A DNA stretch of 64,000 nucleotides from Xiashengella succiniciproducens (GTDB lineage Bacteria > Bacteroidota > Bacteroidia > Bacteroidales > Marinilabiliaceae), in contig NZ_CP098400.1 in assembly GCF_023674465.1 (NCBI RefSeq), positions 930,001 through 994,000 of the forward strand, in the 5' to 3' direction. Positions 16,927 through 26,303 of the stretch are shown here, piece after piece. The position numbers and the translations under genes were made by a program. Position 1 is the first letter of the stretch. Each line of letters starts with the position of its first letter. Below the pieces are notes generated by a model. The model was not told the origin of the DNA. It searched no databases and saw only the letters and a list, made by a program, of their open reading frames with translations.

Positions 16927-17706
16927 ATGGAGCTTAAGAATAGAGCCTTACCTTTAATTGTACTGCTTTTACTAACAGCAGTATCCTGTGTTCCGCTTAA
17001 AGAGTCCATATATCTACAGGGAGATATGGCAAAACATCTTGAAGATCTTGAGGGGCAATATAAGATAGAAAAGAGTGAGTATCTGGTAAAACCAGGTGAT
17101 CTTCTGTATATTAGGGTAACAAGTCTGGATGAGCGTTCTTCATCCTTTTTGAATACTGAGTCAGGATATACAACTATGGCTTCCAATCCTATGTCAGCCA
17201 GTTTGCTGGGCTACAGGGTTGGCCTTGATGGTTCCATTGACTATCCTTTTCTTGGGAAGATTTATGTTGCCGGACTTTCCCTGAGGGAGGTTGCTCAGAA
17301 GATAGAGCTTGCAGCAAGCAAGTATATAGATCAGAGCGGAGTTATTGTCAAACTGCTCAACGACCACGTAACAATTATGGGTGAGGTTAGAAACCCCGGC
17401 AGGTTCCTGATGAATAGTGAAGAGATATCGATACTTGAGGCAATTAGTCTTGCAGGTGATATGACTGACTTTGCCAATCGTAAGGCTGTCCGCCTGATTC
17501 GCAAGGATGGTGATACACCTCAGATGCTTATTATTGACACTACTGATGAAAGGATAATGTTTTCACCCTACTATTACATTAAGCCGGGTGACATAGTATA
17601 CATTGAGCCCCGAAGGCTTAAACAGTGGAGTCTTACAGGTATACCCTTCAGTCTGTTCCTCAGTGTAGTTAGTGTATCCACAGTTATTTACACCCTGGTC
17701 AAGTAA
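16927..17706 (+). CDS. polysaccharide export lipoprotein, Wza-like (SLBB)
   Basis: A lipoprotein signal (LLLLTAVSC, Cys21) is followed by the poly_export domain (YLVKPGDLLYIRVTSLDE) and an SLBB domain (VTIMGEVRNPGRF). A hydrophobic helix near residues 235-255 precedes the C-terminus. This is the outer-membrane export channel of Wza-dependent capsule or exopolysaccharide systems. At 259 residues it is of the short Bacteroidota type. The next gene is its inner-membrane partner, whose chosen ATG is 19 bp downstream. Confidence 0.92.
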   Translation: MELKNRALPLIVLLLLTAVSCVPLKESIYLQGDMAKHLEDLEGQYKIEKSEYLVKPGDLLYIRVTSLDERSSSFLNTESGYTTMASNPMSASLLGYRVGLDGSIDYPFLGKIYVAGLSLREVAQKIELAASKYIDQSGVIVKLLNDHVTIMGEVRNPGRFLMNSEEISILEAISLAGDMTDFANRKAVRLIRKDGDTPQMLIIDTTDERIMFSPYYYIKPGDIVYIEPRRLKQWSLTGIPFSLFLSVVSVSTVIYTLVK

Positions 17707-17725
17707 CAAACAATTAAATGAATCA

Positions 17726-20071
17726 ATGAAGAACCTCGATATAGTTGAAAACGATAAGAGTTTTGATCTGAAAAAAGTTTTTTTCAGGGCCTTACGTTAC
17801 TGGTACATATTCCCAATATTTTTTATTGTTGCAGTTGCAATAGCACTCATAGCTTACAAGACCACTATACCCCAGTACCAGATTTCGACGCAGGTAATGA
17901 TATCTGAGGCCAAGGATGGTCAGACTGGTCCTGCAGGAGTAAGTGATAAGGCTCTGCCTGGTATTATGCTTGGGGGATACAGTCATGTAGAAAACCAGCT
18001 TATTATTCTGACTTCCCGTCATCAGATTGAGAAGACTATCAGGGAGCTGGATTTTGAGGTTTCTTATTATGAAAAGGAACTGCTCAGGTATCAGGAGATA
18101 TATATGGCATCTCCTTTCAAGGTAATAATAGATTCATCGGAGGTCGTGCCCCGTGGCAAGACCTTTAACCTTGTATTTACGTCTAAGGATAAGTTTGAAC
18201 TTGAACTTGATGGTAGCGGAAAGAAGAAGGAATACAAGTTTTTTGAAAAGATAATAGAGCCCAACTTCGTCTTTACTATTATTCCGGTTGAGGAGAATCT
18301 AAACAAGGTAAATTACTGGGATAAGAGCTACAGGTTTACTATCAACCATATATCTTCTCTTGTATCGCATTTTAAGGGTAAGATCTTTCTTGATCAGGTG
18401 GGATTCAGTTCTTCAATAGTTGAGATTTCTATACACGAGAATAATATTGCCAAAGGTGTAGATTTCCTTAACAAGCTTGCACAGAACTCAGTGGATTATA
18501 CACTTGATAAGAAGAATCAGATTGCATTGAATACAATTGAGTTTATCGAGAAGCAACTTATTGGGGTGGCTGACTCTCTGGGTGCTGCTGAAAGTATCCT
18601 TGAGAATTTCAGGTCGAGCAATGTTGTAATGGACGTTTCTTTCCAGGGACAGATGATTATTACCCAGTCCAAGGAGCTTGAGGAACAGAGAGCGGCTCTG
18701 ATGGCAAAGCTTGATTATTATTCATATCTGAGCGACTATATCAATCAGAACAGGGACTTGCACGAGGTTGTAGTTCCCGCTTCCATGGGTATTGAAGACC
18801 CGATTCTGACGGGACATATTGCTCAATTGTCACAACTCAATTCAGAGCGTTCAGCCCTGCTGTTCAATGCTACTACCCAGAACCCCAATATTGCACGTAT
18901 CAATGCAAGTATTGAGAATGTAAAGAACAATATACTAGAGTCTCTGAGAAGCGTAATAGCGGCAACAAATCTGTCTCTCAATGATATCAACAACAGGCTT
19001 GTGTCACTAAGTCAGGATATACGTAAACTGCCACATACAGAGCAAAGGCTTCTGAATATTGAGAGGACAAGGCAGATGAACAATGAGACCTATACCTTCC
19101 TGCTTAATAAGCTTACAGAAGCTCAGTTAGCAAAAGCTGCCAACCGTCCTGATAATGAGATTATAGAACCTGCGATGGTTAAGACTCAGGTCTCACCTGA
19201 CCTTACCAAGACTATACTGCTAATCTTTGTTCTGGGAATCTTCCTTCCTGCCATTATAATATTTGTAATTGTATTTACTAACGATAAGGTTCAGGACAAG
19301 GAAGATATCACCTCCATTGCACAGTTGCCTATAATCGGAGAGATCCCATTCGAAAGGAACAAGACTGCTCCTGTCAATATCGAACCAGGTCAGGATTATC
19401 ATGGCAATACCATACTTGCAGAAGCTTTCCGTAGTGTACGGACCTCCCTTGGTTATTATGCCAATGATAAGGGAACCAAGGTGATTCTTATCACTAGTAC
19501 CCTACCCGGAGAAGGAAAGTCCTTCTGTGCTTTGAATCTGGCCCGGTCATTTGCCCGCCTCAACAAGAGGACTTTGCTTGCTGAGTATGATATGAGAAGG
19601 CCCTCACTTGCTACTCAGGCCGGCATAAAGGTAGATGGACCCGGACTTAGCAGCTACTATACCGGAGAGGCAAAGATTGAAGATATAATGATGAGAGACA
19701 GGGAGAATGAAAACCTAAGCGTAATATTTGCAGGTTTTATTCCGCCAAATCCTGCCGAACTAATTGCTGGTGAAGCTACTGCAAGATTTATGGAAGAGGT
19801 GAGCAAGAAGTTTGATATTGTTATCATAGACACCCCGCCAATAGGCGTGGTGGCAGATGCATTGCTGTTGACAAGTTATGCAGATGTCAATATTATTACA
19901 GTACGCCATAATACTACTCCGAAGCCGGTATTGAGAATGAATCTGATGGATGAAAAAGTAAAGAATATACCGCACCTTTCAGTATTGTTGAACGGAATAC
20001 CTTCACAAAGCAGGGAATATAATTATAAGTATTCCTATGGCAATGGTAAGTATTTCGCAGATGCTAAATAG
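17726..20071 (+). CDS. Wzz/Wzc-type polysaccharide co-polymerase and BY-kinase
   Basis: I chose the ATG at 17726 (MKNLDIVENDKS); a longer frame opening at 17672 would overlap the Wza-like gene. The 781-residue product has a Wzz domain with membrane helices near residues 30-50 and 500-525, a long periplasmic coiled coil between them, and a C-terminal BY-kinase. The kinase carries Walker A (STLPGEGKSF), Walker A' (LLAEYDMRRPS) and Walker B (IVIIDTPPIG). A tyrosine cluster at the C-terminus (YNYKYSYGNGKYF) is the usual autophosphorylation site. It controls chain length and export of a polysaccharide together with the Wza-like protein. No glycosyltransferases, flippase or polymerase are nearby. 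Confidence 0.93.
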   Translation: MKNLDIVENDKSFDLKKVFFRALRYWYIFPIFFIVAVAIALIAYKTTIPQYQISTQVMISEAKDGQTGPAGVSDKALPGIMLGGYSHVENQLIILTSRHQIEKTIRELDFEVSYYEKELLRYQEIYMASPFKVIIDSSEVVPRGKTFNLVFTSKDKFELELDGSGKKKEYKFFEKIIEPNFVFTIIPVEENLNKVNYWDKSYRFTINHISSLVSHFKGKIFLDQVGFSSSIVEISIHENNIAKGVDFLNKLAQNSVDYTLDKKNQIALNTIEFIEKQLIGVADSLGAAESILENFRSSNVVMDVSFQGQMIITQSKELEEQRAALMAKLDYYSYLSDYINQNRDLHEVVVPASMGIEDPILTGHIAQLSQLNSERSALLFNATTQNPNIARINASIENVKNNILESLRSVIAATNLSLNDINNRLVSLSQDIRKLPHTEQRLLNIERTRQMNNETYTFLLNKLTEAQLAKAANRPDNEIIEPAMVKTQVSPDLTKTILLIFVLGIFLPAIIIFVIVFTNDKVQDKEDITSIAQLPIIGEIPFERNKTAPVNIEPGQDYHGNTILAEAFRSVRTSLGYYANDKGTKVILITSTLPGEGKSFCALNLARSFARLNKRTLLAEYDMRRPSLATQAGIKVDGPGLSSYYTGEAKIEDIMMRDRENENLSVIFAGFIPPNPAELIAGEATARFMEEVSKKFDIVIIDTPPIGVVADALLLTSYADVNIITVRHNTTPKPVLRMNLMDEKVKNIPHLSVLLNGIPSQSREYNYKYSYGNGKYFADAK

Positions 20072-20244: not shown

Positions 20245-21138
20245 ATGACTATTGACAGACTTGGCGGCTCTATAGTCGCTATTCCCACGCCATTTAAGAG
20301 CAACGGTGATCTGGACCTGGAGACATTCGACAGGCTGGTAGACTGGCATCTTGAACAAGGGACCGACGCTCTTGTGGTTTGCGGAACCACAGGTGAAACA
20401 CCTACTTTGACAGAGGAGGAAGATGCCATAATGATTGAAAGGGCAGTCAAGCGAGTAGGCGGACGAATACCCGTTATTGCAGGAACCGGCAGCAACTCCA
20501 CCAAAGAATGTATTACATATTCTACAAGGGCTGTCAATCACGGTGCTGATGCTTTGCTCGTTGTAGCTCCATATTACAATAAACCCACTGATAAGGGGCT
20601 GAGACTTCACTTCTCCACAGTGGCAGAATCTGTCAAGGTTCCCGTAATTCTTTATAACGTTCCTGGTCGTACCGGTAGCTGCATAAGTCCAAAGACTGCA
20701 GCATGGCTAGGCGAAAAATATGACAATATAATCGGTATCAAGGAAGCCGGAGGTAACCTGGCAGTATTTGCCGATTTGCTGGCTCTGTGTCCTAAGGGAT
20801 TCAAAATACTCAGCGGCGATGACTTCCTGGCTCCATCGGCCAACTTTCTTGGTGCTCATGGTTGTATCTCTGTGGTTGCAAATGTTATACCTCGCGATTT
20901 CCACCTTCTGATGAAGGCATCTATAGAAGGTAATCTTGGAGAGAGCCGCAGACTGTTCTTCAAGTACAAACGACTTATGGAACTCTTGTTTATCGAGTCC
21001 AACCCCATCCCGGTTAAAACCGCCCTGGCAATGATGGGAAAGATAGGTCCTGCTCTGAGACTTCCGCTTTGTCCTATGGAAGAGCACAATGAAGCAATAC
21101 TCAGAGAAGAGCTGCAAAAGCTGGGCTTAGTAAAATAG
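20245..21138 (+). CDS. dapA: 4-hydroxy-tetrahydrodipicolinate synthase
   Basis: This 297-residue TIM-barrel enzyme condenses pyruvate with aspartate semialdehyde, the first step of the lysine/diaminopimelate branch. It shows GTTGETPTL (pyruvate binding), the catalytic Tyr in VILYNVPGRTG, the Schiff-base Lys in IIGIKEAGGNL, and the C-terminal NPIPVKTAL motif. Length is normal. It is monocistronic, ended by a strong hairpin 53 bp downstream. Confidence 0.96.
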   Translation: MTIDRLGGSIVAIPTPFKSNGDLDLETFDRLVDWHLEQGTDALVVCGTTGETPTLTEEEDAIMIERAVKRVGGRIPVIAGTGSNSTKECITYSTRAVNHGADALLVVAPYYNKPTDKGLRLHFSTVAESVKVPVILYNVPGRTGSCISPKTAAWLGEKYDNIIGIKEAGGNLAVFADLLALCPKGFKILSGDDFLAPSANFLGAHGCISVVANVIPRDFHLLMKASIEGNLGESRRLFFKYKRLMELLFIESNPIPVKTALAMMGKIGPALRLPLCPMEEHNEAILREELQKLGLVK

Positions 21139-21190
21139 GAATGTAATTCGGAACCAGTTTTAGTATTAGAACAATAGGTGATTTGCAGTA

Positions 21191-21223
21191 GGGCATCCCA
21201 CAGGGGATGCCCTTTATTATTTT
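21191..21223 (+). terminator. intrinsic terminator of dapA
   Basis: A perfect 9-bp stem (GGGCATCCC / GGGATGCCC) with a 4-base loop is followed by TTTATTATTTT. Confidence 0.85.
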
Positions 21224-21306: not shown

Positions 21307-21942
21307 ATGTCCAACCTGCTTTTGCAACTACATGAAGATCTTCGCTTTAGAGAAGGCCTGTCAGCATGCATGAATTGTGGGGTATGTACTGCTCTGTGCC
21401 CTGCTGCATCATACTTCGAATATGATCCCAGACATATATGCCAGATCGTTCAGACCGGCGATGAAGCTGATCTGGAATCTTTGCTTAAAGGTGATGAGAT
21501 ATGGCAATGTGGTCAATGTCTGTCCTGTAAAGCTCGCTGTCCCCGTGGGAATGTCCCCGGCTACGTAATTCAGGCTCTCCGAAAGCTAAGTCAGCTGAAA
21601 GGCTTTTTTATGTATTCCGAGGAAGGACGCAAACAGTTGAGGATCAAACGTGCAATTGGACATAGCATACTAACTACAGGTTATTGTGTACACCCTCGTC
21701 TTGTAGATCCTGCCGTTCATCCGGAACAGGGACCTGTATGGGCCTGGGCCTTTGAGCATGGAGCTGAGTTGTACAAGCTGTGCGGTTCTGCTTTCTATGA
21801 CGCTCAGGAAGGAGGCTTGCGTAAGATTCCACAGGATGTGCTTAATGAACTAGGGTCTATATTCTATGAGACCGGGGCTTTCAAGCTCTGGGAAGCTATT
21901 GAGGGAGAGGAAGTAAAAACCAAAAATAAACAGGAGAGATGA
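21307..21942 (+). CDS. HdrC-like 4Fe-4S electron-transfer protein
   Basis: I chose the ATG at 21307, preceded by AAGGAA; an upstream in-frame start at 21226 would add unconserved residues over the promoter. The 211-residue protein carries two 4Fe-4S motifs, CMNCGVCTALCP (about residue 20) and CGQCLSCKARCP (about residue 63), the arrangement of heterodisulfide reductase subunit C. It would pass electrons between the HdrA flavin and the HdrB-type cysteine-rich subunit. Its stop overlaps the start of the next gene (ATGA). The Hdr family assignment is clear; the physiological donor and acceptor are not. Confidence 0.85.
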   Translation: MSNLLLQLHEDLRFREGLSACMNCGVCTALCPAASYFEYDPRHICQIVQTGDEADLESLLKGDEIWQCGQCLSCKARCPRGNVPGYVIQALRKLSQLKGFFMYSEEGRKQLRIKRAIGHSILTTGYCVHPRLVDPAVHPEQGPVWAWAFEHGAELYKLCGSAFYDAQEGGLRKIPQDVLNELGSIFYETGAFKLWEAIEGEEVKTKNKQER

Positions 21943-22997
21943 AATCTCTTTTATGGAAGGAATATCAAAAGGAGGTTCCTGATGACAAGTACTTCTTTGT
22001 CAGGAGCTGTATCCGGCAAACATTCTTCCCAGGAGCGGAAAGCTCCTTGTTGAGACTGTTACGTGAGGAGCTGAAGCTGAACATCTTCGAAGATAGCCGT
22101 CATACTACTTGCACAGGAATAGGCTATCATACCGATGTCGTGCCTTTTGAGACAACAATGACAGTTGTGGCACGTCAGCTAGCTCTGATGACCGATGCTG
22201 GGTACCGCAACCTTCTTGTATCATGTGTTACCTCCTTTGGCATCTACCTTGAGATGGTAGAGGTGTGGCATCATCACCCCGAGATGCTTGAAAGGACCAG
22301 GGAGGCACTTTGGAAGGCTACACGCAGGGAATTTGAAATTCCCGAATTCATAGTACACACTTCAGATCTGGTATATCACTTTCGTGAGGAATTTGCCTCT
22401 CGTGCGCCTTATCGGCTGGTAAACAAGGAAAGCGGCAAGCCGCTAAGGGTTGTTGACCATGTTGGCTGTCACTATGCCAAGATCTTTCCTGACAGAGGTT
22501 TTGGCGGGGCTGAGTTTCCCAGCGTATTATCCGGGTTGGTGGAGACATTCGGTGGTGAGAATGTAGATTATCCAGAGCGCAGACACTGTTGCGGCTTTGG
22601 TTTTCGTCACTACCTGCTTCAGGAAAACCGCGGCTACTCGGTATCCAATAGCCGTGTTAAGTTTGAGTCTATGGAGCCCTATGCTCCCGATCTGATAGTG
22701 ACCAACTGTCCCGGTTGTAACATGTTCCTGGATCGTTGGCAGTACACTCTGGCAGAGATGAACGGTAAGACCTACGATGCCGATGGCAGGGGAATTCCTG
22801 TGCTTACTCACGAGGAACTGACAGCACTGATGATGGGTTATGACCCCTGGAAATTAGGTCTTCAGATGCATCAGGTGCAGCTTGAACCGCTGCTGGATAA
22901 GATTGGAGTAGTATATGAACCAGGGAAAAAATACAACCTGCTGTCAGGCCCGGTTAAAGGTCCTGAACTGCCTGAAGTGCTGAAAGTGATTCCATAG
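21939..22997 (+). CDS. HdrB-like cysteine-rich (CCG-domain) protein
   Basis: This 352-residue protein resembles HdrB, which holds non-cubane Fe-S clusters at two CCG domains. The C-terminal domain keeps the full pattern: HVGCHYAK, CCGFGFR and CPGC. The N-terminal counterpart is degenerate, with CTGIGYH where CCG is expected and CVTSFG downstream. This suggests that only one catalytic-type cluster is bound, as in several HdrB relatives from organisms that do not make coenzyme M. It overlaps HdrC by 4 bp and is followed 22 bp later by HdrA, so it is surely part of the same operon and complex. Confidence 0.82.
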   Translation: MKSLLWKEYQKEVPDDKYFFVRSCIRQTFFPGAESSLLRLLREELKLNIFEDSRHTTCTGIGYHTDVVPFETTMTVVARQLALMTDAGYRNLLVSCVTSFGIYLEMVEVWHHHPEMLERTREALWKATRREFEIPEFIVHTSDLVYHFREEFASRAPYRLVNKESGKPLRVVDHVGCHYAKIFPDRGFGGAEFPSVLSGLVETFGGENVDYPERRHCCGFGFRHYLLQENRGYSVSNSRVKFESMEPYAPDLIVTNCPGCNMFLDRWQYTLAEMNGKTYDADGRGIPVLTHEELTALMMGYDPWKLGLQMHQVQLEPLLDKIGVVYEPGKKYNLLSGPVKGPELPEVLKVIP

Positions 22998-23019
22998 TTT
23001 CAGAAAAAGTATTGGTCAG

Positions 23020-24093
23020 ATGAATATTCCGCAGGATAAAAAATACGATGTTGTCATCATTGGAGGGGGCTTCTCCGGACTTAGCACGGCAGTAGTTTTA
23101 GCTGAGAGGGGTATTAGTGTTGCCGTGTTTGAAAAGGATGAAAAGCCCGGTGGTCACCTTAGTAGGTGGCACCATCTGTTTCCACATGGACAGGAGGCTT
23201 CAGAACTGCTTGGTGAACTCTACAGCAAGGTTAAACACCTTGACATACCTGTATTTACGGGTAGAAAAATTACAGGTATACGTCTGCTGAGTGGGGTCAA
23301 TATGTTGATGGATGGAGATGAGGTACTTGCTTATGCCATGGCTGTAGTATTGGCTGCTGGTTTCAGGCTCTTTGATGCCCAGCGTAAGGAAGAGTATGGC
23401 TATGGCTTGTATCCTTCAGTACTGACGGCTGCCGAGGTTGAAGCAGTCTTCCGTAAGGAACGGCCCTGGCCCTTTGATAGCTCATGTGAACAACCCCGTA
23501 TTGCCTTTGTACACTGTGTGGGTTCCCGCGATCTTAAGTGCGGTGTGGCTCATTGCAGCAAGCTGTGCTGCATCACTGCCGTCAAACAAGCAATTGCCGT
23601 TAAGCAAGCCTTCCCAAAATCACAAGTTTGGTGCTTCTATATGGACCTCAGAATGCATGGTCTTGAATATGAAGAACTGTACCGCAGGGCTCAGGTAGAA
23701 TATGGGGTACGCTTTATAAGAGGCCGCCTGTCTGAGGCTTCTCCGGGTCAGGGAGGTACTCTCCATGTGAAGGCCGAAGATACTTTACTTGGAAAACCCA
23801 TACGGATGCAGCTTGACATGCTCGTGTTGATGGCAGGTATGGTACCTGCAGTTGACCTTCAACGGAGTATAGGAAAACTAGTACTGGAGGAACCCTCATT
23901 TGGTAGTGGTTTTATTTCTGTAACAGGCTACCCCTTATCAGTTCAGGTTGCCGGTCATCCCGGTATTTATGCTGTCGGAACATGCAAGGGGCCTGCAGTA
24001 CTGCCCGAGGTAATGGCCGATGCCTGTGCTGTTGCAAGAGAAGTGGAGAATTATATAAAGTCAATAAAGGAACCACAATATGTCCAGGCCTGA
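23020..24093 (+). CDS. HdrA-like FAD-binding oxidoreductase subunit, short form
   Basis: The N-terminus has the dinucleotide-binding motif IIGGGFSGLSTA and FEKDEKPGGHLSR. The centre holds the HdrA signature HCVGSRDLKCGVAHCSKLCC, whose cysteines bind an Fe-S cluster next to the flavin. The C-terminus has the FAD-closing GIYAVGTCKGPAVLPEV. At 357 residues it lacks the N-terminal and C-terminal ferredoxin extensions of methanogen HdrA, so it resembles the shorter QmoA-like forms. It overlaps the next gene by 14 bp. In HdrA and Qmo complexes this flavin is the branching point for electrons; bifurcation here is a possibility, not shown. Confidence 0.85.
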   Translation: MNIPQDKKYDVVIIGGGFSGLSTAVVLAERGISVAVFEKDEKPGGHLSRWHHLFPHGQEASELLGELYSKVKHLDIPVFTGRKITGIRLLSGVNMLMDGDEVLAYAMAVVLAAGFRLFDAQRKEEYGYGLYPSVLTAAEVEAVFRKERPWPFDSSCEQPRIAFVHCVGSRDLKCGVAHCSKLCCITAVKQAIAVKQAFPKSQVWCFYMDLRMHGLEYEELYRRAQVEYGVRFIRGRLSEASPGQGGTLHVKAEDTLLGKPIRMQLDMLVLMAGMVPAVDLQRSIGKLVLEEPSFGSGFISVTGYPLSVQVAGHPGIYAVGTCKGPAVLPEVMADACAVAREVENYIKSIKEPQYVQA

Positions 24094-24418
24094 TTTTGGT
24101 TTTAGCTGGTCGGGAGCCAGGGCATTGGATCCCTCGCAGCCCCTTAGCTCTGAGGTGCAAAAGGTTCTGGATGGAGAACCTGGCCTATTGGATTGTATTT
24201 CCTGTGGGCAGTGTGCTGCTGTTTGCACTGCAGGTGCCTATACCTCCATGTCTTTTTACAGGGTCGTACTGCACTTGTTGAGAGGTGAGACCAAGGAGGC
24301 ATCCATGATGTCACATGGATGCATGCTTTGCGGGAAGTGTCGCATGACCTGTCCCCGAGGAGTTAATATACACAATGCCGTGATGCTGATATCGGCACTT
24401 ATGCATACAAAGGCTTAA
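24080..24418 (+). CDS. second HdrC-like 4Fe-4S protein
   Basis: A small protein of 112 residues with two 4Fe-4S motifs, CISCGQCAAVCTAGAY (with Thr in place of the usual Pro after the last Cys) and CMLCGKCRMTCPRGV. It is about half the length of the first HdrC and probably links HdrA to the membrane subunit encoded 3 bp downstream. Its start lies inside the end of HdrA. Confidence 0.82.
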   Translation: MSRPDFGFSWSGARALDPSQPLSSEVQKVLDGEPGLLDCISCGQCAAVCTAGAYTSMSFYRVVLHLLRGETKEASMMSHGCMLCGKCRMTCPRGVNIHNAVMLISALMHTKA

Positions 24419-24421
24419 GCT

Positions 24422-26251
24422 ATGGAAAGATCAGCAGTGTTCGTAATTCCCTTTATGGCAGGGTTTGTATTTGCCCTGACGGTCCTTGCCGTGCGTTATT
24501 TGTGGTGGCTACGGGGACTGAGGAAGCAGGCCCCGGGTAAACTGCCGGCGGTTCTCTTTTCCCATAAGACCCTCAGTGCCATAAATGAGATATTCAATGA
24601 GGCAATCCTTCATCGTCGCATTTTAAAGCGAAACAGGCGCATGGGCTTTATGCATATGAGCCTTGCCGTTGGTTGGGGTATGATGATACTTGGTGGTAAG
24701 TTTGAAACCTGGTTTCATACCGGACGTTTTTTCCATGATACATGGTATGCAGTATTCTTCAGATATTTCGAACCCCAGGTAGTGGGTGGGCTTGCAGGAG
24801 CTTTCTGGTTACATTATATGGATTTGGGGCTACTGGTGGTTTTATCGGGCGTCACACTTGCAGTAATCAAGCGGATAAAGAAAAAAGTTCTCGGCATCAA
24901 GAATACTACCAGGCATAGTAGGGTAAATCGTTTGGCGCTGACCTTCCTTTGGCTGGTCTTCCCGCTGCGTCTGCTTGCGGAGGCTGTGACTTTCGGGCAG
25001 TATGGAGGTGGAGGCTTTCTGACAGGCACGTTGGGCAAACTGTGTTTTACAAGTCCTATGTGTGCAGTTGTCGAACTGCCACTATGGTGGGCCTATTCAC
25101 TTGTGCTTGGTGCCTTCTTTGTCGTTCTGCCCTTCTCGCGCTATCTGCATATTCCAACAGAGATGGTGCTGATATTGCTCCGTCACTGGGGTTTGAGGGC
25201 ATCTACAGAATTGAAGCCGGAGGAAGGATTGCAAGCCTTTGAAGTGCACGCCTGTTCTGCATGTGGAATGTGTCTTGATGTTTGCCCGGCAATTGGGCAA
25301 CAGCCTTTCCAGGCTGCCTATTTTATGCAGGCAATAAGAAGTGGTAAGGGCTGGGAAAAGATGGCTACCGATTGCCTTAGCTGTGGTGCCTGTGAGAATG
25401 CCTGTCCTGTAAATATTGGAATAGAGAATATGCGTGTTGCGGCCCGTGGCAAGGTTCATCAGGATTATATGGCAAAACATGACTATCTGCCAACACTAAG
25501 TACCAGAGAGAGAAGGAGTGCCAATATACTGCTGTTTACCGGCTGTATGGGACGTCTTAAACCAGGTATTACAGAGGCTGTGAAGCAACTGCTTGAGGAA
25601 GCAGGGCTTAGCTGGGTGCATCTGGATGAAAAGGATAGCATATGCTGTGGTCGTCCTATGGCTTTGGCTGGCAGGACTGATCAGGCTGCTACAATGAGGG
25701 CTGCAAATGAAGCTCTGATAGGCAGTTATAGAGCCGGTATGCTCGTTACAACCTGTCCCATTTGCCTGAATCAGTTCCGCAATGAGTACAAACTCAATAT
25801 TCCTGTAGTTCATCATAGTGTATTACTATGGCAACTTATGAGTGAAGGCAGGATAAAGACAGAGAGGGGTCTTGAGTGCTTCAGTTACCATGATCCTTGC
25901 GAGCTTGGGAGAAAGGGCGGGCACTACAATGAACCTCGTGAGCTTCTTTCTGCATGTGGTAACTTACTACCTGTTGACAGGGAAAAGTCTGAATCACTGT
26001 GCTGCGGGAATACACCCGGTTCCCTTTCCCTGTCACTAAAGGATCGTCAGAATATAACAGCAGCTACGCTCAAAGTACTTGAGGCTCCGCATCCCGACAA
26101 GATAGTAACTGCATGCCCCTTGTGTCAGCACAACCTGTCACGTCAGAGCAAGGTTCCTGTTAAGGACATAGCCGAGGTGCTGGCAGGTGTCCTGATTTCC
26201 ACGAGTACACAGGCTCATTATTCCCACGAAGCCGAGACTATTGAAGCCTGA
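24422..26251 (+). CDS. membrane-bound HdrE/HdrD-like fusion (quinone-facing Fe-S oxidoreductase)
   Basis: The first 250 residues hold five or six membrane helices of the HdrE/DsrM/nitrate-reductase-gamma type, which normally bind haem b and react with quinone. Then come two 4Fe-4S motifs (CSACGMCLDVCP, CLSCGACENACPV) and two cysteine-rich domains of the HdrD/DsrK type (CCGRPMALAG with CPIC; CCGNTPGS with CPLC). The 609-residue protein is thus an HdrE-HdrD or DsrM-DsrK fusion. It closes the operon and would connect the soluble Hdr-like complex to the quinone pool. Confidence 0.85.
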   Translation: MERSAVFVIPFMAGFVFALTVLAVRYLWWLRGLRKQAPGKLPAVLFSHKTLSAINEIFNEAILHRRILKRNRRMGFMHMSLAVGWGMMILGGKFETWFHTGRFFHDTWYAVFFRYFEPQVVGGLAGAFWLHYMDLGLLVVLSGVTLAVIKRIKKKVLGIKNTTRHSRVNRLALTFLWLVFPLRLLAEAVTFGQYGGGGFLTGTLGKLCFTSPMCAVVELPLWWAYSLVLGAFFVVLPFSRYLHIPTEMVLILLRHWGLRASTELKPEEGLQAFEVHACSACGMCLDVCPAIGQQPFQAAYFMQAIRSGKGWEKMATDCLSCGACENACPVNIGIENMRVAARGKVHQDYMAKHDYLPTLSTRERRSANILLFTGCMGRLKPGITEAVKQLLEEAGLSWVHLDEKDSICCGRPMALAGRTDQAATMRAANEALIGSYRAGMLVTTCPICLNQFRNEYKLNIPVVHHSVLLWQLMSEGRIKTERGLECFSYHDPCELGRKGGHYNEPRELLSACGNLLPVDREKSESLCCGNTPGSLSLSLKDRQNITAATLKVLEAPHPDKIVTACPLCQHNLSRQSKVPVKDIAEVLAGVLISTSTQAHYSHEAETIEA

Positions 26252-26274: not shown

Positions 26275-26303
26275 CAAGGCATCTCCAATTAGGGAGTGCC
26301 TTG
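26275..26303. terminator. hairpin between the convergent Hdr-like operon and TonB-dependent receptor gene
   Basis: CAAGGCA/TGCCTTG plus CTCC/GGAG form an 11-bp stem with one bulged base. There is no following T-run, so it is a 3' hairpin of uncertain efficiency. Confidence 0.4.

Follow-up and report, generated by a model that had tools for sequence, protein, structure and literature searches.

In the sulfur-oxidising sHdr systems, which are made up of heterodisulfide reductase (Hdr)-like proteins, the genes are given in excerpts of the respective papers as lying in the order hdrC1B1A-hyp-hdrC2B2 (PMC12345210, PMC6335251), shdr genomes are described as encoding LbpA with very few exceptions (PMC10332631), and metagenome-assembled genomes (MAGs) of Proteobacteria account for 334 of 406 sHdr sets (PMC12345210). 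A quinone was proposed as the acceptor for sHdr in 2009, in Acidithiobacillus, by Quatrini et al. (PMC2754497). Here we describe an operon of five Hdr-like genes, C1-B1-A-C2-ED, in a stretch of 64,000 nucleotides (the window; G000:C1:930001-994000) of the genome of Xiashengella succiniciproducens (Bacteroidales), a single contig of 3,101,014 bases that is listed as 99.99% complete and is called G000 below. Our tentative reading, to which we give slightly less than an even chance, is that the operon encodes a membrane-coupled relative of sHdr that would oxidise sulfane sulfur to sulfite for cysteate and sulfonolipid synthesis and pass the electrons to menaquinone.

Literature searches for heterodisulfide reductase together with sulfonolipid returned no paper joining the two (most subscription journals lay beyond the search and an earlier mention is possible). 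Those for Hdr, HdrABC or menaquinone in Bacteroidetes gave no title, or opening part of an abstract, that names such an operon, and those for HdrD/HdrE fusions in Bacteroidetes gave only the genome paper of a sulfate reducer.

Results

A compact operon with a fused membrane subunit

The five genes lie head to tail (Table 1), with spacings of -4 (C1/B1), +22 (B1/A), -14 (A/C2) and +3 bases (C2/ED). The sequence-only reading had described them as overlapping or within 22 bp of each other and as encoding HdrC, an HdrB with only one full CCG domain, a short HdrA, a second HdrC and a quinone-facing HdrE-HdrD fusion, thereby bringing soluble HdrABC-type and membrane HdrDE-type modules together in one unit. 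The coordinates and the Pfam and NCBIfam calls agree with this description, and a fusion of the quinone-reactive type is likewise supported. Its statement that no sulfate reduction genes are nearby stands as far as dissimilatory sulfite reductase is concerned, of which there is no sign in G000: the only two NIR_SIR matches of the genome both fall in one CysI frame. As hairpins were found on both flanks, in the dapA/C1 gap and 3' of ED, the operon looks separate from dapA, its co-transcription being presumed.

C1 carries a Fer4 dicluster domain (Pfam), with HdrC as its top NCBIfam match (80 bits) and a weak match to the QmoC model (42 bits, cut-off 300), and all eight cysteines of its two [4Fe-4S] motifs were present in 143 of 143 sequences. 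B1 gave a single CCG match in Pfam and HdrB as the top NCBIfam match (142.8 bits), and its solved relatives are HdrB chains. The C-terminal CCG motif is complete (C177, C217C218, C257xxC260); the first is degenerate, with two canonical cysteines missing and C24, C58 and C96 present, and B1 thus departs from the two-CCG HdrB of methanogen HdrABC. C24 was kept in 148 of 149 aligned sequences, the remaining one having a gap, and C58 and C96 in all 149. Because the same degenerate motif is found in B1 of a Picosynechococcus plasmid, it looks like an old trait of the family rather than a sign of decay. Selenocysteine at stops reported inside some B1 matches was considered and rejected, as in the four loci inspected the stops were C-terminal ends.

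For A the top NCBIfam matches were HdrA2 and HdrA (190.4 bits), and Fer4 is absent from its Pfam match list. Only one solved structure, 6tjr (349 residues), aligns across nearly all of the protein (residues 11-344), methanogen HdrA chains matching the core; its record label is fumarate reductase/succinate dehydrogenase flavoprotein domain protein, and we take it to be the sHdrA of Hyphomicrobium denitrificans. The cluster cysteines C166, C179, C183 and C184 were found in 131 of 131 HdrA proteins, as was E141, and K189 in 130 of them. These two residues align to E356 and K409 of Methanothermococcus HdrA, a pair proposed, in an excerpt of PMC12054007, to separate bifurcating from non-bifurcating HdrA; at the aligned flavin-site positions 6tjr keeps the Glu and has Asn in place of Lys. 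Since HdrA keeps the pair, the low-potential carrier that the sequence-only reading had considered retains some standing, in the form of a flavin-based bifurcating or confurcating enzyme in which the FAD of HdrA would split electron pairs between menaquinone (via ED) and a carrier such as ferredoxin (by a C2 or C1 route). The K189/E141 pair, with Asn at the Lys in 6tjr, and the extra dicluster ferredoxin C2 would suit such an enzyme. We nevertheless regard it as distinctly improbable, because the ferredoxin domains of longer HdrA proteins are missing from the window HdrA and genes for MvhD, a hydrogenase, a formate dehydrogenase and FrhB are all absent from the operon (the rest of the genome was not searched for these).

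In ED, a Fer4 domain and two CCG stretches follow a hydrophobic N-terminal part (Pfam and NCBIfam), for which hydropathy suggests about four membrane segments. Both CCG motifs and both [4Fe-4S] motifs are complete, the cysteines tested being present in 119 or 120 of 120 sequences, and H64, H78 and H243 were found in all 120; from these three invariant histidines ED is predicted to bind heme b. The top NCBIfam matches were CCG proteins of the TfrB/LdhH/GlpC/DsrK kind, all below cut-off (45 bits for the DsrK model, cut-off 400), and the best solved relative was 9ojn chain A, an 'iron-sulfur-binding reductase' that is presumably mycobacterial EtfD-like. On the strength of that match, of an ETF pair in G000 and of an ED homologue of 50% identity (L018:6237-8159, in G023) whose 14 kb stretch contains none of C1, B1, A and C2, one might take ED for an ETF:menaquinone oxidoreductase (EMO/EtfD type) that is encoded together with an Hdr module to which it is unrelated. 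We find this very hard to credit, as 0.87 Mb of the contig separate the ETF pair of G000 from the operon, two operon carriers, G005 (100% complete) and G018 (72%), gave no ETF match, and ED stays with the other four genes in 114 of the 151 loci that contain B1. All Hdr scores of the window proteins are far under the methanogen equivalog cut-offs of NCBIfam. Predicted structures of ED and B1, from three-sequence alignments, had mean pLDDT values of 39.9 and 41.4 and were not used.

Table 1. The operon and its flanking hairpins (positions within the window).
Feature	Position	Strand	Evidence
Hairpin between dapA and C1, terminator-like, 10 bp stem and T-rich tail	21190..21223	+	Folding -20.1 kcal/mol, z -3.5; terminator scan
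C1, HdrC-like, two [4Fe-4S] motifs, 211 aa	21307..21942	+	Pfam/NCBIfam; eight Cys kept
B1, HdrB-like, one complete and one degenerate CCG motif, 352 aa	21939..22997	+	Pfam/NCBIfam; Cys alignment
A, short HdrA, FAD core and one [4Fe-4S] motif, 357 aa	23020..24093	+	NCBIfam; structure match; residue alignment
C2, small dicluster ferredoxin/HdrC2-like, 112 aa	24080..24418	+	Pfam/NCBIfam
ED, HdrE-like membrane part fused to HdrD-like part, 609 aa	24422..26251	+	Pfam/NCBIfam; His/Cys alignment
Hairpin 3' of ED, possible terminator, without T-rich tail	26275..26303	+	-17.2 kcal/mol, z -4.8; not in terminator scan list

The operon is frequent in the order and its gene order is kept

A B1 profile search matched 127 of 393 genomes sampled from the order, in 80 of 207 genera, and the operon is therefore not the compact local oddity that it had first seemed. 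In an even draw of 395 genomes from the whole phylum only three had B1, and two of these, in the Bacteroidota genomes G045 and G127, were distant forms with frame lengths of 424 and 412 aa. When ED was used as the query in 41 relatives, including G000, 19 gave full-length matches at E < 1e-100, and the best match in the other 22 was about 1e-23 or weaker. Relatives beyond Bacteroidota were reached through plasmid records only, and a single scan of viral contigs confirmed no relative.

We fetched and scanned 153 stretches, some genomes giving two loci, and B1 was present in 151 of them; apart from L018, the one without it was L023 (G025), a contig with C2 and ED from a genome in which B1 and A are on another contig (L116). 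The order C1-B1-A-C2-ED was found in 114 of the 151 B1 loci, or 110 of 134 when only stretches long enough to show the unit are counted; such regularity goes beyond chance. Four loci have all five genes in the variant order C1-C2-ED-B1-A, and in nineteen C1-B1 was the only part present, 15 of these lying on stretches of sufficient length to judge. For the first 84 complete loci, the genes were separated by median distances of 1, 9, 2 and -4 bases, and their products had median identities to the window of 50.5% (C1), 62% (B1), 41% (A), 38% (C2) and 39% (ED); as the highest of these values is that of B1, it appears to be the most constrained subunit.

Relation to sHdr and other Hdr-like systems

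Judged by gene order and the match of HdrA to 6tjr, the closest relative appears to be the sHdr set of sulfur oxidisers rather than the mix of methanogen-type parts that the first reading of the sequence had seen. The two have in common the order C1, B1, A, C2, the HdrB and HdrC parts and a short HdrA that consists of an FAD core with a single [4Fe-4S] motif and has no ferredoxin domains. However, the window operon is without hyp, so that the full sHdr order is not found, has the membrane E-D fusion in place of soluble B2, and has, at the K409 position of HdrA, Lys instead of the Asn of 6tjr. A blastp search with the GcvH of L035, L036 and L037 (E up to 1e-3), which might overlook a strongly diverged LbpA, detected no GcvH-like frame in the 153 fetched stretches. 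The only GcvH of G000 lies a long way from the operon; of the 41 relatives 38 have GcvH, irrespective of the operon, and two carriers, G007 (92% complete) and G028 (98%), are without it. DsrE and TusA gave no match in the near-complete G000, although some other carriers do match. Because LbpA is not linked to it and DsrE and TusA are without match in G000, the operon seems to be built of sHdr-like parts and yet to be no member of sHdr as that system is defined. Ordinary sHdr sulfur oxidation with a lipoate-binding protein would draw on the C1B1A-C2 order, the short HdrA and the 44% identity of B1 to the Picosynechococcus plasmid B1; with GcvH unlinked, DsrE and TusA unmatched, no hyp or soluble B2 and Lys rather than Asn in HdrA, we think it most unlikely, and its canonical form we rejected, LbpA, DsrE and TusA being missing in G000.

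The plasmid of Picosynechococcus sp. PCC 7003 (L029:8215-13955) has a C1-B1-A-C2-B2 set with an FAD oxidoreductase, which is sHdr-like and also lacks hyp. Its C1, B1 and A are 43%, 44% and 36% identical to those of the window, with the first CCG of B1 degenerate and Lys at the K409 position, but it encodes a soluble C2 of 203 aa and a B2 of 290 aa instead of C2-ED, has Asp at the E356 position and belongs to a cyanobacterium; its function is not in the record. Methanogen HdrABC(-MvhAGD) resembles the window operon in the HdrA core, with equivalents of K409 and E356, and in having HdrB-like and HdrC-like proteins; in contrast, the window HdrA lacks the ferredoxin domains (Pfam, and alignment with an Ilyobacter HdrA), B1 has a single complete CCG, there is no MvhD, the partner is a membrane protein and the scores are far below the equivalog cut-offs. 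With HdrED, DsrMK and EMO/EtfD the operon shares a membrane part with invariant His, two [4Fe-4S] motifs and two CCG domains, but here E and D form one chain, which is tied to HdrC1B1A, and no ETF is encoded in the operon; for DsrMK, neither a DsrK equivalog score nor a Dsr context was found. Like the operon, QmoABC combines an HdrA-like flavoprotein with a quinone-reactive membrane subunit; the operon differs in having HdrB together with an HdrD part and only one HdrA. We propose that it is a variant of the Hdr kind with a new role.

Cysteate and capnine synthesis genes beside the operon

Genes for cysteate or capnine synthesis lie on the strand of the operon in 10 of the 151 loci, within 60 bp of it in seven, and these ten loci span six families (f9, f96, f135, f161, f80, f83) and four groups of the B1 tree. 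In L027, L054 and L148 a TIGR03844 cysteate synthase (442.6, 438.5 and 465.5 bits, cut-off 324.9) lies 12-26 bases 3' of ED. The others have capA or capB (CapA, CapB and CapC are named here after excerpts of PMC12927429 and PMC11211663): L099 reads capB-capA-C1-B1-A-C2-ED-SDR, L109 has capB-capA about 20 bases 5' of C1, L126 has capB-capA and L133 capB 3' of ED, and in L100, L101 and L151 capA and an SDR gene are found about 2-4 kb upstream. The CapA-like proteins of L109 and L100 scored only 108 and 121 bits against TIGR03844 and matched threonine synthase models better, all below cut-off, and hence two types of cysteate synthase, TIGR03844 and CapA-like, are probably linked to the operon. 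A substrate that had been called unknown is, by virtue of these neighbours, no longer wholly so.

In an excerpt of PMC9304779, Lys281 is given as a mark of cysteate acyltransferases (SulA). We matched its position through the motif in a mutagenesis primer of that paper, and the motif, AKSLP, was present in all five CapB proteins read, four from beside the operon and that of the window genome, which also has a TIGR03844 cysteate synthase. CapB, counted at E up to 1e-100 in the 393 genomes used for B1, occurs in 279 of them: 119 of 127 genomes with B1 and 160 of 266 without (Fisher 2e-13, a value that ignores descent). Two of the B1 genomes counted as positive, G568 and G784, have weaker matches. 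With the count restricted to genomes of 90% completeness or more and 5% contamination or less, the figures were 111 of 115 and 130 of 211. B1 was found in 54 families, 52 of which include a genome that has B1 together with CapB.

Besides common descent in the Fisher test, several observations weigh against a role in sulfite supply. B1 is missing from 160 of the 279 CapB genomes, which means that sulfonolipid synthesis cannot in general depend on the operon. The TIGR03844 synthase taken alone was not significantly associated with the operon in the 41 relatives (found in 12 of the 19 carriers and 9 of the 22 others; P 0.21), no cysteate or capnine gene was found in the 24 kb scanned around the window operon or in 141 of the 151 loci, and the functions of CapA, CapB and the SDR are putative, being assigned by homology with no NCBIfam model that names them so. 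G000 has CysD, CysI and CysJ-like proteins; the window organism may make sulfite from sulfate, and the operon cannot be assumed to be its only source. The idea that the operon replaces sulfite reductase was also rejected, there being no association (sulfite reductase in 8 of 19 carriers and 8 of 22 others). Finally, no TusA/DsrE sulfur carrier was found in G000, and K189/E141 in HdrA, set against the Asn of 6tjr, hints at a different flavin chemistry.

The CysI and CysJ-like genes lie side by side at G000:C1:2309060-2312770, next to genes that by eye look like siroheme synthesis genes, and CysD (G000:C1:2064166-2065071) is about 6.5 kb from CapB.

C1-B1 pairs without the membrane subunit

Loci with C1-B1 only include L147, L150, L152, L155, L159-L162, L166, L169, L170, L173 and L174, among others. 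Many have ATPases with ferredoxin domains (MinD/ferredoxin), Mrp-like ATPases and DUF134 regulators as their surroundings; a few are near CoA-disulfide reductase-like/rhodanese fusions (348 bits) or methionine gamma-lyase-like genes (507 bits), both below cut-off. Such neighbours would fit a thiol or persulfide as the substrate of B1, and possibly these loci belong to a persulfide or cluster-assembly context. The same few pairs speak for a general thiol/disulfide or persulfide redox complex, in which electrons would run from menaquinol through ED, C2 and A to B1, where a protein disulfide or persulfide is reduced, the sulfonolipid linkage being incidental. HdrED and DsrMK reduce disulfides or trisulfides with quinol, which counts in its favour, as does the TfrB/LdhH/GlpC/DsrK kind of the best, sub-threshold ED matches. 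It does not account, however, for the repeated arrival of capB and of cysteate synthases of two kinds next to the operon on its own strand, and we consider it unlikely, though deserving of serious attention.

An Acidithiobacillus ferrooxidans plasmid (L030:3150-4490) encodes a 446 aa protein, part of which is B1-like; nearby genes carry the annotations hemerythrin, DUF2249, glycine cleavage H and hydroxylamine reductase.

Other neighbours and regulators

Among the 114 complete loci a LuxR-type regulator was found in 21, as the first same-strand upstream gene in 14, and a histidine kinase in 18; such an upstream pair may switch the operon on in response to a signal. L014-L016, L021, L068, L074, L077, L078, L088, L117 and L123 are among the loci with an upstream LuxR-type gene, usually with the histidine kinase before the regulator. 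The next most frequent same-strand direct neighbours were the cysteate synthase group (five loci), dapA (four, in close relatives only) and a family of 144 aa (three). A candidate sulfate permease adjoining C1 in L020 was rejected (220.5 bits, cut-off 400); it is a PiT-family transporter only. Upstream of the window operon, genes at 16927-20071 resemble by eye polysaccharide export and chain-length proteins, followed by dapA at 20245-21138. In Geofilum rhodophaeum and in one MAG the operon likewise has the export and chain-length families and dapA around it, with dapA on the opposite side.

Discussion

Cysteate synthase uses sulfite and phosphoserine. Phosphoserine is also given as the start of the cysteate route in an excerpt of PMC11211663. 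The need for sulfite common to both synthase types, together with the fact that the nearest characterised Hdr relative makes sulfite, is what leads us to sulfite production as the tentative role of the operon. The five proteins would then form one membrane-attached complex, in which HdrC1, HdrB1 and the short HdrA make up an sHdr-like catalytic module. B1 would oxidise protein- or thiol-bound sulfane sulfur to sulfite, the FAD and [4Fe-4S] cluster of HdrA would store the electrons and pass them on, by the route A, C1, C2, ED, and C2 with the HdrE-D fusion would lead them out to menaquinone by way of noncubane clusters and heme b. From menaquinone they would be taken up by an anaerobic chain, probably with fumarate, while cysteate synthase could use the sulfite to form L-cysteate and, from it, capnine-type sulfonolipids.

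Of this model, the coupling to quinone is the best-supported part; G000 has two UbiA-family prenyltransferases, which fit menaquinone and are no proof of it. We infer complex formation, the heme, the quinone, the sulfane sulfur substrate, the sulfite product and the direction of the reaction. In the model of the sHdrA authors, sulfane oxidation reportedly takes place on B1 and lipoamide reduction on B2. A quinone reductase in the place of B2 would account for a complex that needs no LbpA. That the operon encodes an Hdr complex independent of oxygen and lipoate, coupled to menaquinone and dedicated in its carriers to supplying sulfite for sulfonolipids, with a flavin that may still bifurcate, strikes us as possible but doubtful.

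If the proposal is true, the operon would be a source of sulfite for sulfonolipids in many anaerobic Bacteroidota that works without oxygen. Sulfonolipids are reported, in excerpts of PMC11211663 and PMC3463246, to influence host immunity and the development of choanoflagellates. It would also offer natural evidence for quinone as an electron acceptor of sHdr-like complexes, and would mean that the sulfite-forming module can be separated from the lipoate module of sHdr. With B1 in about a third of the genomes sampled from the order, this would be a common and testable trait of these bacteria and no rarity.

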